From the NCBI RefSeq assembly GCF_019430885.1, contig NZ_JAHYBZ010000008.1, positions 1 to 64,000 of the forward strand: a stretch of DNA of 64,000 nt. The letters are read 5' to 3'. Shown here one piece after another: positions 13,999 through 63,211 of the stretch. The DNA is from Roseomonas alba (GTDB lineage: Bacteria; Pseudomonadota; Alphaproteobacteria; Acetobacterales; Acetobacteraceae). A program made the position numbers and the translations under genes. Position 1 is the stretch's first letter. Every line of letters begins with the position of its first letter. Below the pieces are notes generated by a model, which worked only from the letters and a program-made list of their open reading frames with translations, did no database searches and was not told the DNA's origin.

Positions 13999-14313
13999 TG
14001 GCGGAAGGGGCTGTGCCCCTCCCCGGCCTCTCCCAGCCAAGGGATCCCACGGCATTCGTGATGACCCAGACGCCTCCGCCGCCGCCCCGGGAGGGGCTCC
14101 GGCCCTCCAAGCGCGCTTCGTGCGCAAGTGCGGGTCTCGACATTGATCCTGCCGTTAGCGCCCGGCGCCAAGTTGAGGTTTCCAAGGGCCTTTCGGCCCT
14201 TGGCGCGTGGGGGGGCGGGGGAGGGCAGAGCCCTTCCCCGTTCCACCGCGCCATGATCCCCGCACCTATGGGGGCCGGCTGCGCCGGAGCAGATCGTCGC
14301 GTCTGCCGCCCTG
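13999..14313. repeat. Intergenic palindromic repeat cluster, family copy A
   Basis: This 315-base gap carries stacked GC hairpins: 14006-14020 (AGGGGC-TGT-GCCCCT), 14092-14110, and 14182-14203 (CCAAGGGCC-TTTC-GGCCCTTGG). The stretch from about 14110 (GCGCGCTTCGTGCGCAAG) through GTTGAGGTTTCCAA at 14172-14185 to about 14240 recurs reverse-complemented at 52859-52983 and in part at 61920-61980. The first hairpin may end the maeB operon. No gene seen. Confidence 0.6.
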
Positions 14314-52824: not shown

Positions 52825-53273
52825 AGCCCCGGCGACCGGAGAGTTCCGCTGTGGAATTGGAGGGGCGCCGCCCCTCCAAACCACCCCGGCAAAGGCCGAA
52901 AGGCCTTTGCAAACCTCAACTTGGCGCCCTGCACCACTGATAGAATGCGAGCCGAAACCCGCCCTTGCGCACGAAGCGCGCTGGGTGGGCCAAACATGTC
53001 CGTTGCGCCGAGTAGCAATAGATTGCGGTCCAGGATGCCCGGCATCCTGGCGGGGTGGTCCGGAGGGGCGGCGCCCCTCCGGTTCCCGCCTGCGAAAGCA
53101 AACGGGCAATCAGGCTCATTGTCGTTTGCAATGACCCGCCCGGCCTCGTGCGCGGACATTCCACGGAAGGGTGCGGACACGACACCGTCGCGCGGATCGG
53201 GTAATCTGCGCCGGCGCCACCATCTGATGGGCGCGCGGTGGGCAAGTCGCCCGCCGCCAAGGAGAATTGGACC
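52825..53273. repeat. Palindromic repeat cluster, family copy B
   Basis: A 449-base gap between a TctC gene and proA. 52859-52983 is the reverse complement of the repeat at about 14110-14240, containing the hairpins GGAGGGGC-GCC-type (52859-52877) and GGCAAAGGCC/GGCCTTTGC, then CAAACCTCAACTTGGCGCC and GCGCACGAAGCGCGC. A second hairpin module (GGAGGGGCGGCGCCCCTCC) is at 53062-53080. No gene seen; the proA promoter must lie in or after this cluster. Confidence 0.6.
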
Positions 53274-60036: not shown

Positions 60037-61596
60037 ATGCCCGCCAGTCGCCCGCGCCCCGTCATGCTCGTCATCCTCGACGGCTGGGGATGGCGTGAGG
60101 ACCGCGCCGACAACGCCGTGCTGCAGGCGAAGACGCCCGCCTTCGATCGGCTCTGGGCCGAATGCCCCCATGCGTTCCTGCGCACCTCGGGCCCCGATGT
60201 CGGCCTGCCGACTGGCCAGATGGGCAATTCCGAGGTCGGCCACCTGAACATCGGTGCCGGCCGCGTGGTCATGCAGGACCTGCCGCGCATCGGGAATGCC
60301 GTCGCCGATGGCTCGATCGCGAGTTTGCCCGCGCTGACGGGACTGATCGAGAAGCTGAAGGAAACCGGCGGCACCTGCCATCTGATGGGGCTGCTGTCCC
60401 CGGGCGGGGTGCATGCCCATCAGGACCATGCGGTCGCCCTCGCCCGGATTCTGTCCGCAGCCGGAATCAAGGTCGCCATCCATGCCCTGACCGATGGCCG
60501 CGACACCGCCCCCAAGGCGGCCCCCGAGTTCCTGGCAAAGTTCGAGGCCGATATCGACGGACTGCCCGGCGTCTCGATCGCCACGGTGATTGGCCGCTAC
60601 TTCGCCATGGACCGCGACAATCGCTGGGAACGCGTCTCCCAGGCCTATGACGCCATGGTCGTCGCCGAGGGCACCCACGCCACGGACGCGCAGGCGGCCA
60701 TCGCGGCCGGGCACGCCGCTGGCAAGACGGACGAGTTCATCCCCGCCACCGTCATCGGCGGCTATGCCGGCATGCAGGATGGTGACGGGCTGCTCTGCTT
60801 CAATTTCCGCGCCGACCGGGTGCGGCAGATCCTGGCGGCGCTGCTCGACCCGTCCTTCTCTGGCTTCGCCCGCAAGCGCGTCGTCCGCTTCGCCTCCGCC
60901 GCCGGCATGACGGAATACAGCGAGGCGCTGAACCCCTTCCTCGCCACACTCTTCGCCCCGCAATCCATGGCCGACATCCTCGGCAGCGTCGTCTCCGCCC
61001 AGGGGATGACGCAGCTCCGCATGGCGGAGACCGAGAAGTACCCGCACGTCACCTACTTCCTGAACGGCGGCGAGGAGACCCCCTTCCCCGGCGAGGACCG
61101 CATCCTGGTCCCCTCCCCCAAGGTCGCGACCTATGACCTGCAGCCAGAAATGTCCGCGCCCGAGCTGACGGACAAGGCCGTGGCGGCGATCGGGTCCGGC
61201 ACCTACGATCTGATCGTGCTGAACTTCGCCAATGCCGACATGGTGGGCCATACCGGCAGCCTGGCCGCCGCCACCAAGGCGGTGGAGACGGTGGATACCG
61301 GCCTCGGCCGCATCGCCGATGCCATCCGCGCCGCCGGCGGCGCGCTGTTCGTCACGGCCGACCACGGCAATGCCGAAATGATGAAGGACCCCGTCACCGG
61401 CGGGCCGCACACGGCGCACACCACCAACCCCGTGCCGGCCATCCTGCTCGGCGCGCCCAAGGACGCGGCGCTGAAGGATGGCCGCCTGGCCGATATCGCG
61501 CCGACGCTGCTGGCACTGCTTCAGGTCGCGCAACCGGCGGCGATGACGGGGACGTCGCTGCTCCGTCCACGGCATGAAGCGGCCGCCGCGGACTGA
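60037..61596 (+). CDS. gpmI: 2,3-bisphosphoglycerate-independent phosphoglycerate mutase
   Basis: A 519-residue metalloenzyme interconverting 3- and 2-phosphoglycerate in glycolysis. LVILDGWGWRE (11-21) holds a metal aspartate, S65 in QMGNSEVGHLNIGAGR is the phosphorylated nucleophile, and HNAD/ADHGNAE (about 444-450) bind metal. Complete at about 510-520 residues. ATG 60037 follows ATAAGGACC. Confidence 0.95.
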   Translation: MPASRPRPVMLVILDGWGWREDRADNAVLQAKTPAFDRLWAECPHAFLRTSGPDVGLPTGQMGNSEVGHLNIGAGRVVMQDLPRIGNAVADGSIASLPALTGLIEKLKETGGTCHLMGLLSPGGVHAHQDHAVALARILSAAGIKVAIHALTDGRDTAPKAAPEFLAKFEADIDGLPGVSIATVIGRYFAMDRDNRWERVSQAYDAMVVAEGTHATDAQAAIAAGHAAGKTDEFIPATVIGGYAGMQDGDGLLCFNFRADRVRQILAALLDPSFSGFARKRVVRFASAAGMTEYSEALNPFLATLFAPQSMADILGSVVSAQGMTQLRMAETEKYPHVTYFLNGGEETPFPGEDRILVPSPKVATYDLQPEMSAPELTDKAVAAIGSGTYDLIVLNFANADMVGHTGSLAAATKAVETVDTGLGRIADAIRAAGGALFVTADHGNAEMMKDPVTGGPHTAHTTNPVPAILLGAPKDAALKDGRLADIAPTLLALLQVAQPAAMTGTSLLRPRHEAAAAD

Positions 61597-61600
61597 ACCA

Positions 61601-61675
61601 GAGAGGGGCTTTGCCCCTCTCCGGACCTTACCCCACCACGGGGACCCATTCGCGTTGCCATGTAACGCGAATGGG
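61601..61675 (+). terminator. Terminator of gpmI and adjacent perfect inverted repeat
   Basis: GAGAGGGGC-TTT-GCCCCTCTC (61601-61621) directly follows gpmI. A second perfect repeat CCCATTCGCGTT-N7-AACGCGAATGGG is at 61645-61675. Both belong to the palindrome-rich stretch preceding the EnvC-like gene. Confidence 0.6.
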
Positions 61676-61693
61676 AACCCGCATAGGCCACAA

Positions 61694-61820
61694 GGCCTTT
61701 GGTGGGGTGGCTTGGAGGGGCAAAACCCCTCCGACTCTGCCTCTGCCTGTTGCTCTCCGCCTCCGCTCTCGCCCAGCAGCCCTCCCGCGAATCCGTCCAG
61801 GACGCCCGTCGCGCCGCCGA
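61694..61820 (+). pseudogene. Duplicated 5' fragment of the EnvC-like gene
   Basis: This 127-base stretch is repeated at 61944-62070, offset exactly 250 bases, with about four differences. It encodes from a TTG at 61699 the same signal peptide and first mature residues (LLLSASALAQQPSRESVQDA) as the real gene, then diverges after DARRAADAKR. It is a truncated, non-functional duplicate lying between palindromic repeats. Confidence 0.75.
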
Positions 61821-61913
61821 TGCGAAACGCGTGCTGCGCATACGAGCCCGCTCATCTTCATGGCACCCTGCACCGGAGCCCGTGTGCCAAACCCGAAACC
61901 CCCGCCGCGCCCG

Positions 61914-61980
61914 GAACCAGGTTGAGGTTTCCAAAGGCCTTTCGGCCTTTGGTGGGGTGGCTTGGAGGGGCAAAGCCCCT
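61914..61980 (+). repeat. Palindromic repeat, family copy C, overlapping a gene start
   Basis: GTTGAGGTTTCC (61921-61932), hairpin AAAGGCC-TTTC-GGCCTTT (61933-61950), GGGGTGGCTT and hairpin GGAGGGGC-AAA-GCCCCTCC (about 61964-61982). It shares sequence and order with the repeats at 14172-14240 and 52859-52925. The EnvC-like gene starts inside it. Confidence 0.7.
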
Positions 61981-63211
61981 CCGACTCTGCCTCTGCCTGT
62001 TGCTCTCCACCTCCGCTCTCGCTCAGCAGCCCTCCCGCGAATCCGTCCAGGACGCCCGCCGCGCCGCCGAGGCCGAGCGTGCCGCCGCGGAAGACGCCGC
62101 CCGCCTCGCCCGCGAGGCGTCCGAGGTCGAGCGTGGTCTGGCCCGCCAGCGCGTGGCCATGGCCGAGCGCGTCCAGCAGGCCGAATCCGTGCTCGATGCG
62201 GCTCAGGAACGGGAGCGGCGTGCCGTTCACGCCGCCATCGCAGCGCGAGACGAGGCGACGCGCCGGGCCGCCGCCCTCGCCCCGATGCTGCCGGCGATGC
62301 GGCGCCTGTCGCTCTGGCCGGCCGAGACGCTGCTCGCCGTGCCTTTGCCTCCGGAGGAAGCCCTGCGCGGCGTGCTGGTCCTGCAGGGCATCGCCCGCCA
62401 GATCCGCCAGGATGTCGAGGCGCTGCGCGAGGCGGACCGGGAGGCCTCCCGCCGCGCCCGCGTCGCCGCGGCGGAGGCTCTGCTGGTCACGGCGGCCCGG
62501 GAGGAGGCGCTGTCCTCCGCCGCCGCGCTGGATTCCGAGATCGCCGCCGCCCGCATGCGCGAGGCCGAGGCCCGCCAGGCCGAGCGGACGGCGGACCGCC
62601 GCGCGCAGGACGCGCTGGCCCGAGCCTCGAATCTGGCCGACATGCTGGCCCGGATCGAGCGCGACCAGGCGCGCGAAGCCGCTGCCCAGGCTGCCCGCGA
62701 GAGGGCCGCGGCGGCCCAGCGGGCGCGCGAGGAACGTGCCGCGGCCCGCGCAGGCCGCACCCCGCCGCCATCCGAGCCGCTGCCGACGCCCCCGGGACGG
62801 ACCCAGGTCGCCTCGGTGGCGTCGGGCGCGCGGGTGATGCCGGTCGCCGGGCGGGTACTGCGGGGCTTCGGCGACCAGGGGGAAGGTGGGGCTGCACGCG
62901 GGGAGACCATCCAGACCCCGGCCGGGGCGCGGGTCGTCAGCCCCTGTGGCGGGCGGGCGGTCTTCAGCGGTCCCTTCCGAAGTTATGGCCTGTTGCTGAT
63001 TGTCGACTGCGCCGATGGCCACCATGTCGTGCTGGCCGGCCTCGGGCGGCTCGACGCGTCGACGGGTGCGCGCCTGCTGCCCGGGGAACCTGTCGGCGTG
63101 ATGGGCGAAGGGGAGGGCGGGCGCGACCGGCTCTATCTGGAGCTGCGTCGCGAAGGCCAGACGATGGATCCGCGGCCCTGGCTCGCCGGGGCACGTGGCA
63201 GTGGAGGATGA
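61949..63211 (+). CDS. EnvC-like murein hydrolase activator (degenerate M23/LytM)
   Basis: A 420-residue periplasmic protein. Signal peptide LVGWLGGAKPLRLCLCLLLSTSALAQ, a long coiled coil (about 30-260, rich in Ala/Glu/Arg), a low-complexity linker, and a C-terminal LytM domain (about 290-415; VMPVAGRVLRGFGDQ, TPAGARVVSPCGGRAVFSG). LytM catalytic residues are missing (HxGxD reads ARGETIQ; HxH reads YLELR), as in EnvC activators of amidases. Start TTG 61949 or GTG 61952 lies in the repeat copy C; no ATG is available before 62158. It precedes ctpA, as in other alphaproteobacteria. Confidence 0.8.
   Translation: MVGWLGGAKPLRLCLCLLLSTSALAQQPSRESVQDARRAAEAERAAAEDAARLAREASEVERGLARQRVAMAERVQQAESVLDAAQERERRAVHAAIAARDEATRRAAALAPMLPAMRRLSLWPAETLLAVPLPPEEALRGVLVLQGIARQIRQDVEALREADREASRRARVAAAEALLVTAAREEALSSAAALDSEIAAARMREAEARQAERTADRRAQDALARASNLADMLARIERDQAREAAAQAARERAAAAQRAREERAAARAGRTPPPSEPLPTPPGRTQVASVASGARVMPVAGRVLRGFGDQGEGGAARGETIQTPAGARVVSPCGGRAVFSGPFRSYGLLLIVDCADGHHVVLAGLGRLDASTGARLLPGEPVGVMGEGEGGRDRLYLELRREGQTMDPRPWLAGARGSGG

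Follow-up and report, generated by a model that had tools for sequence, protein, structure and literature searches.

The stretch of DNA analysed here (the window, 64,000 nucleotides of Roseomonas alba) carries the gene of an EnvC-like protein, called envC below. Its upstream operon partner is gpmI, the gene for 2,3-bisphosphoglycerate-independent phosphoglycerate mutase (TIGR01307, 660.8 bits against a cut-off of 330.65), and family matches place a PDZ/S41-type protease downstream. The EnvC-like protein has a C-terminal M23/LytM domain (PF01551, 46.5 bits, gathering threshold 28.7). Against the NCBIfam EnvC equivalog NF008644 the window protein scores 51 bits and does not reach the cut-off of 270; therefore we call it only "EnvC-like". 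Orthologues were found in 34 of the 35 genus genomes searched. Inspected by eye, the M23 domain (window 62821-63190) seems to be without the usual zinc ligands, with LYLELR at the place where catalytic M23 members have HxH. The missing ligands would be expected of an activator of the EnvC type and not of an active peptidase. The features are collected in Table 1. Among the genomes compared, G000 is that of the window, G007 is Neoroseomonas lacus and G034 is N. terrae.

Table 1. Features at the gpmI-envC junction (window coordinates)
Feature	Position	Strand	Basis
gpmI	60037..61596	+	TIGR01307 and open reading frame
ATG at the ancestral gpmI-overlapping start position, in frame with envC, no stop between	61574..61576	+	frame comparison with relatives
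Left arm of the element (outer hairpin 61602-61620, extra hairpin 61639-61681, inner hairpin 61682-61702)	61597..61702	+	matches C12:325015-325120, 90% over 106 nt; compare L058
Right-arm fragment of duplication copy 1	61682..61732	+	nhmmer arm match and direct repeat
Gene head, copy 1: signal peptide plus initial mature codons, not in the frame of the remaining envC	61733..61823	+	direct repeat
Interior segment of the element	61824..61901	+	without match elsewhere in the genome search
Right arm (inner hairpin CCAAAGGCC-TTTC-GGCCTTTGG, outer hairpin GGAGGGGC-AAA-GCCCCTCC), encodes the n-region	61902..61984	+	nhmmer match 61904-61982, genome copies, fold
TTG and GTG, candidate starts in the right arm, phase 0	61949..61954	+	same arm position in frame in other genes
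Predicted signal peptide from TTG 61949: MVGWLGGAKPLR (arm) and LCLCLLLSTSALA (the gene's own core and cleavage region)	61949..62023	+	by eye; aligned with four similar N-termini
Mature EnvC-like protein with C-terminal M23 domain	62024..63211	+	PF01551

The hairpin in front of the signal-peptide core belongs to a dispersed repeat. With up to 3 mismatches it has 13 matches in the window where 2.0 are expected, and at least 75 in the genome, 40 of 672 first-look candidates having been scored. The copies consist of two inverted arms with variable middles. Each arm combines two hairpins, the outer one GGAGGGGC-NNN-GCCCCTCC and the inner one around AAAGGCC-GGCCTTT, and the two-armed copies examined measure about 190-345 bp. 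A profile search found 258 arms in a sample of 1.66 Mb of the 6.33-Mb genome; this sample grew from 861 kb, and its first half was picked partly around known matches. Zero overlap with called coding sequence was found for 252 of the 258 arms, although called coding makes up 87% of the sample; the calls come from a purpose-written codon-usage script rather than a standard caller. Five long stretches, with 143 arms in 1.144 Mb and two component 20-kb pieces chosen for their matches, extrapolate to some 790-800 arms genome-wide. Additional arms of the same element lie in the window at 14156-14237 and 52859-52937. The interior is peculiar to this copy: when the genome was searched with 61822-61934, the 14 matches besides the query itself all covered only its last 28-35 nt. 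A known structured RNA was ruled out as the identity of the element, as no Rfam family reached the gathering level within 61200-62300 and the two sub-threshold matches scored 20.6 of 69.1 and 19 of 60 bits.

At envC the dispersed repeat takes in the codons from TTG 61949/GTG 61952 through CCCCTCC. A sequence-only reading of this DNA had proposed that a mobile palindrome encodes the n-region of the export signal and appears to have been exapted as translation start and export signal. The first statement is borne out, the right arm coding for MVGWLGGAKPLR; as to the export signal, the second holds for the n-region only, as the hydrophobic core and the cleavage region are the gene's own. That the whole signal peptide is mobile was ruled out. 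The head (61735-61830) matches only itself and its own duplicate in the genome search, and relatives carry the head without the repeat; their repeat-free junctions show a similar core and cleavage region behind an ordinary or a TTG start, a finding that the sequence-only reading had itself named as refuting, so that the stronger version in which the entire signal came with the repeat is not supported.

The relatives also reveal the older state of the junction. At all 18 sister-clade loci examined, envC starts with a TTG 60 nt before the mature end which overlaps the gpmI stop and leaves no room for a repeat. In the window-species group gpmI lies directly upstream of envC in eight genomes (G000, G001, G005, G006, G007, G011, G013 and G014), and the two genes are apart in seven (G008, G009, G010, G012, G015, G033 and G034). 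In G006, envC begins with an ordinary ATG that lies 54 nt ahead of the mature end. The gap of G001, G005 and G013 holds a common, different palindromic repeat which ends in GGQGGRA(P/L)LF and encodes the n-region, and the junctions of G014, G007 and G000 contain other insertions. The old GTG is 192, 240 and 231 nt away from the mature end in G001, G005 and G013 (L010, L011 and L120), distances which differ by multiples of three. In N. lacus the gpmI overlap is without ATG, GTG or TTG and the equivalent arm position reads GTG GTG GGG. In N. terrae the upstream arm stands in a different phase, and the distance to the core is 90 nt longer; near the core its envC (L121/L037) has no ATG, GTG or TTG, and, by eye, a GAGGAG is followed at 6 nt by a CTG as a possible start.

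A second peculiarity of the locus is a duplicated gene head. As had been noticed from the sequence, a near-identical copy lies exactly 250 bp upstream: 61682-61823 recurs at 61932-62073 (142 nt, 93% identity). The repeat had been put at 127 bp with about four differences; its existence stands, while the count becomes 5 differences over the 127 nt from 61697 and 10 over all 142. Similarity ends at both borders, with 8 of 30 and 9 of 30 positions identical beyond. Copy 1 reads AADAKR where copy 2 and the relatives read AAEAER, and the relatives resemble copy 2 more than copy 1. In other copies of the element (L058 and others) the inner hairpin of the left arm runs into AAACC. At envC it runs into right-arm sequence and the gene head, followed by the unique interior and the second right arm. 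We infer from this arrangement that, some time after the insertion of the element, interior, right arm and head would have been duplicated in tandem over 250 nt, and that the DNA between two inner hairpins, that of the left arm and that of the first right arm, would then have been deleted, leaving the headless, out-of-frame copy upstream. A palindrome that keeps deleting or duplicating the gene head, as had been suggested, is not supported: one duplication is present, and since copy 1 is out of frame and the relatives match copy 2 better, we read it as the relic of a single rearrangement and not as an ongoing process.

The palindrome-encoded N-terminus of envC is not a one-off. Among 1,493 called genes, screened for an arm just upstream irrespective of its phase, 63 qualified and 13 of these had no ATG after the arm. 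By eye, four of the 13 offer no plausible start except in the arm: envC, a WD40-cytochrome c gene (C12:137251; PF00400, PF00034), fliP (C12:229717, minus strand; TIGR01103, 269 bits, cut-off 217) and a phytase-like lipoprotein gene (C27:137273; PF13449). All four are signal-peptide-like and use the arm in phase 0, with the N-termini MVGWLGGAKPLRLCLCLLLSTSALAQ, MLGWFGGARPLQCVALLLALTAPALAQ, (MRPL)PGWLGGAIPFYLLVLAILLLPGTAFAQ and MVCGGPGAGKALPRRAVLAAALATTGC; the lipoprotein, whose arm has extra bases, fits phase 0 only at the TTG. In most of the remaining nine the arm is followed by a GTG or TTG, or an ATG lies slightly past the screen limit. One ambiguous gene, C1:3903-5243 (L234 in G000), shows no ATG, GTG or TTG between the upstream arm and its coding-like start and is not signal-peptide-like. 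By a crude hydrophobicity rule 345 of 1,451 genes, and 15 of 62 behind arms, are signal-peptide-like; the chance of four in four is then 0.003, or 0.013 for four in five with the ambiguous gene included.

Other species show the same pattern. The WD40 protein of N. lacus begins with MVGWFGGAKPLRVFLLLLTLAAPALAQ and FliP of N. terrae with MVGWLGGARPLRLLALLLLLCPATAAAQ, and a hydrolase of N. lacus (L315) is a further case among 47 loci. The arm position of the two candidate starts is thus in frame also in envC of G007, fliP of G000 and G034, the WD40 gene of G000 and G007, the lipoprotein gene of G000 and the hydrolase gene of G007. Counting only the five loci that were found independently of phase (the four of G000 and envC of G007), all are in phase 0 (P = 0.004 by simple counting). 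When four genomes were searched with the N-termini, six matches had E ≤ 1.7e-11, namely the duplicate copy and the five rows used as query, and bare arms followed from E = 1e-5 (among the matches listed; 150 candidates per genome were scored). In repeat-free relatives the start overlaps the upstream stop at 12 of 12 WD40 and 14 of 14 fliP loci; the loci examined came from 14 of the 30 genomes with a WD40 match and from 16 of the 31 with a fliP match. For the lipoprotein the recurrence is less clean than for fliP and the WD40-cytochrome c gene, a clear ancestral overlap being seen in just 2 (G008, G010) of 12 other loci examined, and an in-frame stop lies between its old start position and the arm. 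The WD40 gene of G000 does not share the frame of the GTGA position at which its relatives start and may have undergone a one-base shift. In this gene (L186/L055, near 17285) an ATGCG directly after the repeat is out of frame with the signal-peptide core, possibly by a one-base shift or a sequencing error.

Where does translation of envC begin? The open frame begins 49 nt ahead of the last base of the gpmI stop and offers ATG 61574, TTG 61655, TTG 61712, ATG 61820, TTG 61922, TTG 61949 and GTG 61952. The claim that the gene has no ATG is thus contradicted by ATG 61574 and ATG 61820, and TTG 61949 and GTG 61952 are not the only usable starts, as the former ATG stands at the ancestral position in frame with no intervening stop. 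It belongs to the same frame class as the GTG of G001, G005 and G013, the ATG of G014 and the TTG of the sister clade. For the arm start speak the constant phase, the stop of the lipoprotein, the old start that is missing in envC of G007 and a signal peptide of normal length. Against it speak the weak ribosome-site pairing, the hairpins and the conserved open leader: Shine-Dalgarno pairing at TTG 61949/GTG 61952 amounts to -3.2 kcal/mol versus -5.9 for gpmI and -7.5 for ctpA, and the fold places both codons in or beside strong hairpins. In our judgement a start inside the arm is slightly ahead of ATG 61574.

We therefore suggest that replacement of the n-region proceeded in the following steps. 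A two-armed element of the intergenic type would have inserted at the overlapping stop-start junction of gpmI and envC, downstream of the ancestral start and ahead of the signal peptide's hydrophobic core, and would have left the envC frame open. The n-region would since then be written by the right arm, with core and cleavage region staying the gene's own. An exported short form, MVGWLGGAKPLR-LCLCLLLSTSALA, would start at TTG 61949 or GTG 61952, and a longer form possibly arises from ATG 61574, the old start, which has stayed in frame. The duplication and deletion described above would have come later. Such insertions may survive mainly at signal peptides, because the N-termini of these tolerate change and are removed. 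We give this account as a whole a probability of about 0.52. The element and its copy number, the frame, the phase, the ancestral junctions and the recurrence are observed directly; the act of insertion, the choice of start codon, the cleavage and the sequence of rearrangement steps are deduced from them. More tentatively, and with the odds against it, the arm may serve as a portable translation start and n-region (TTG-GTG-GGG-TGG...GGAKPL) which would repeatedly, within one genus, have re-armed exported downstream genes when the element split overlapping, translationally coupled genes.

The strongest competitor is a read-through leader. Here the element would be translated in frame from ATG 61574, which would place about 150 residues ahead of the cleavage site; the TTG and GTG of the arm would be unused and their shared phase would reflect the chemistry of insertion. 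The reading frames of related junctions bear on this. From 118 family gpmI-envC loci (60 + 58), of which 101 showed gpmI, we obtained 25 testable gaps of 45-600 nt; some of these may hold real N-terminal codons, and three genus junctions represent one common insertion. The envC frame is stop-free in 22 of the 25, compared with 13 and 13 for the other forward frames and a shuffle expectation of 12.6 (Poisson-binomial P about 1e-6, or 2e-6 with the shared insertion counted once). A stricter, wider margin weakens the test to 18 of 21 versus 14 and 10. DNA lodged in this junction thus tends to keep the envC frame translatable, whether or not a repeat is present, and this openness argues for upstream starts and not for the arm start. 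The gap before the signal peptide is stop-free in the envC frame even in genera without an identified repeat, which suggests long translated leaders or starts near gpmI there.

Openness as an intrinsic property of the arm was ruled out: over the 169 anchored arms (89 of the 258 could not be anchored) phase 0 is open in 76% and the other phases in 96% and 98%, with median upstream open lengths of 59, 69 and 72 codons, respectively. Phase 0 is not the phase in which the arm is intrinsically most open. Nor is openness general behind the elements: among 56 other genes with a same-strand upstream gene, the two alternative frames were open in 33 and 26 cases and the gene's own frame in 24. The frame class of the old start is retained in 11 of 13 assessable insertions (P = 2e-4), or in 9 of 11 (P = 1e-3) if G001, G005 and G013 are taken as one, with envC of G006 and WD40 of G000 as the misses; this again accords with read-through. 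So does G001, where the gpmI-overlapping GTG is the only ATG, GTG or TTG between the overlap and the core, and where an arm start is therefore not in use. On the other hand, Shine-Dalgarno pairing is not detectable at ATG 61574, although coupling to gpmI could substitute for it, and the codon-usage score of the envC frame climbs only from 61997, so that the leader does not look like a selected protein. The lipoprotein is one of the 11 keepers of the frame class, yet has its stop in the element. Finally, an n-region of 137 residues would be far beyond the usual length; n-regions are as a rule far shorter. We regard a read-through leader in envC of the window as a real but doubtful alternative.

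Improbable in our view is a decaying or misassembled gene head, with the start lost and translation poor or the duplication an assembly error. The two tandem-like copies, one of them out of frame, might suggest it, as might the contigs of several relatives which end inside envC and indicate a gene that is hard to assemble. However, 10 differences in 142 sites are unlike a collapsed or doubled read stack, the open reading frame beyond the head is intact and 78% identical to that of G001, and the pattern is seen again in other genes and in species that were sequenced separately. Least credible is a non-canonical start right after the hairpin, at CTC 61979 or a CTG, with the protein beginning near the hydrophobic core, the arm as mere leader and the GGAGGGG of the hairpin just upstream as ribosome site: the CTG of the N. 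terrae envC, and a CTG which overlaps the upstream stop where the ATG is missing in the lipoprotein genes of G008 and G010, are in its favour, but CTC is not an accepted start codon, the fold locks GGAGGGG in the hairpin and an arm open in one phase would be left unexplained.

Fusion of a repeat to an open reading frame, as in the arm-written n-region preferred here, is already known. In the passages concerned, Delihas (2007, PMC2759123) describes open reading frames to which enterobacterial RU (repeat unit, MITE-like) elements are fused, among them the pestis case YPO1552, whose homologues have unrelated signal sequences. Our element shares with these the terminal inverted repeats, high copy number and non-coding location (inverted arms; 258 arms in 1.66 Mb), and like them it is an intergenic, mobile-like repeat with open frames fused in frame to genes. 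Unlike in the RU passages, here the same arm and phase occur in several conserved core genes (envC, fliP and others) across species, these genes ancestrally overlapped their upstream neighbour and a start codon lies in the arm. Rickettsia palindromic elements and Wolbachia palindromic elements insert within open reading frames and keep the frame, according to the relevant part of PMC3767692. By that description the Rickettsia elements resemble ours in being palindromic, alphaproteobacterial and in frame without stops (the envC frame is open through the element); they measure 100-150 bp and lie inside open reading frames, whereas ours measures about 190-345 bp and has 252 of 258 arms intergenic, and in the cases found here only signal-peptide starts are affected. 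The enterobacterial RU and the Rickettsia elements appear as the closest precedents, the RU elements being the nearest. REP/BIME sequences are high-copy intergenic imperfect palindromes which occur as pairs of opposite orientation and are known chiefly at gene ends, not as N-terminal codons. Compared by description, our element is likewise high-copy, intergenic (252 of 258 arms outside called coding) and made of paired opposite palindromes, but differs in that the arm supplies N-terminal codons. In the open-licence literature we found no paper on this element.

In summary, the locus offers a concrete case of an intergenic repeat becoming protein sequence in conserved core genes (envC, fliP), in which the ancestral junctions, the insertions in several genes and the surviving frames are all visible in living relatives. 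It suggests a reason why such fusions survive, in that cleaved signal peptides tolerate new n-regions, and a way in which repeats may interrupt operon junctions that overlap while the downstream gene survives. It is also a warning that the start-site annotation of exported genes is unreliable in repeat-rich genomes.
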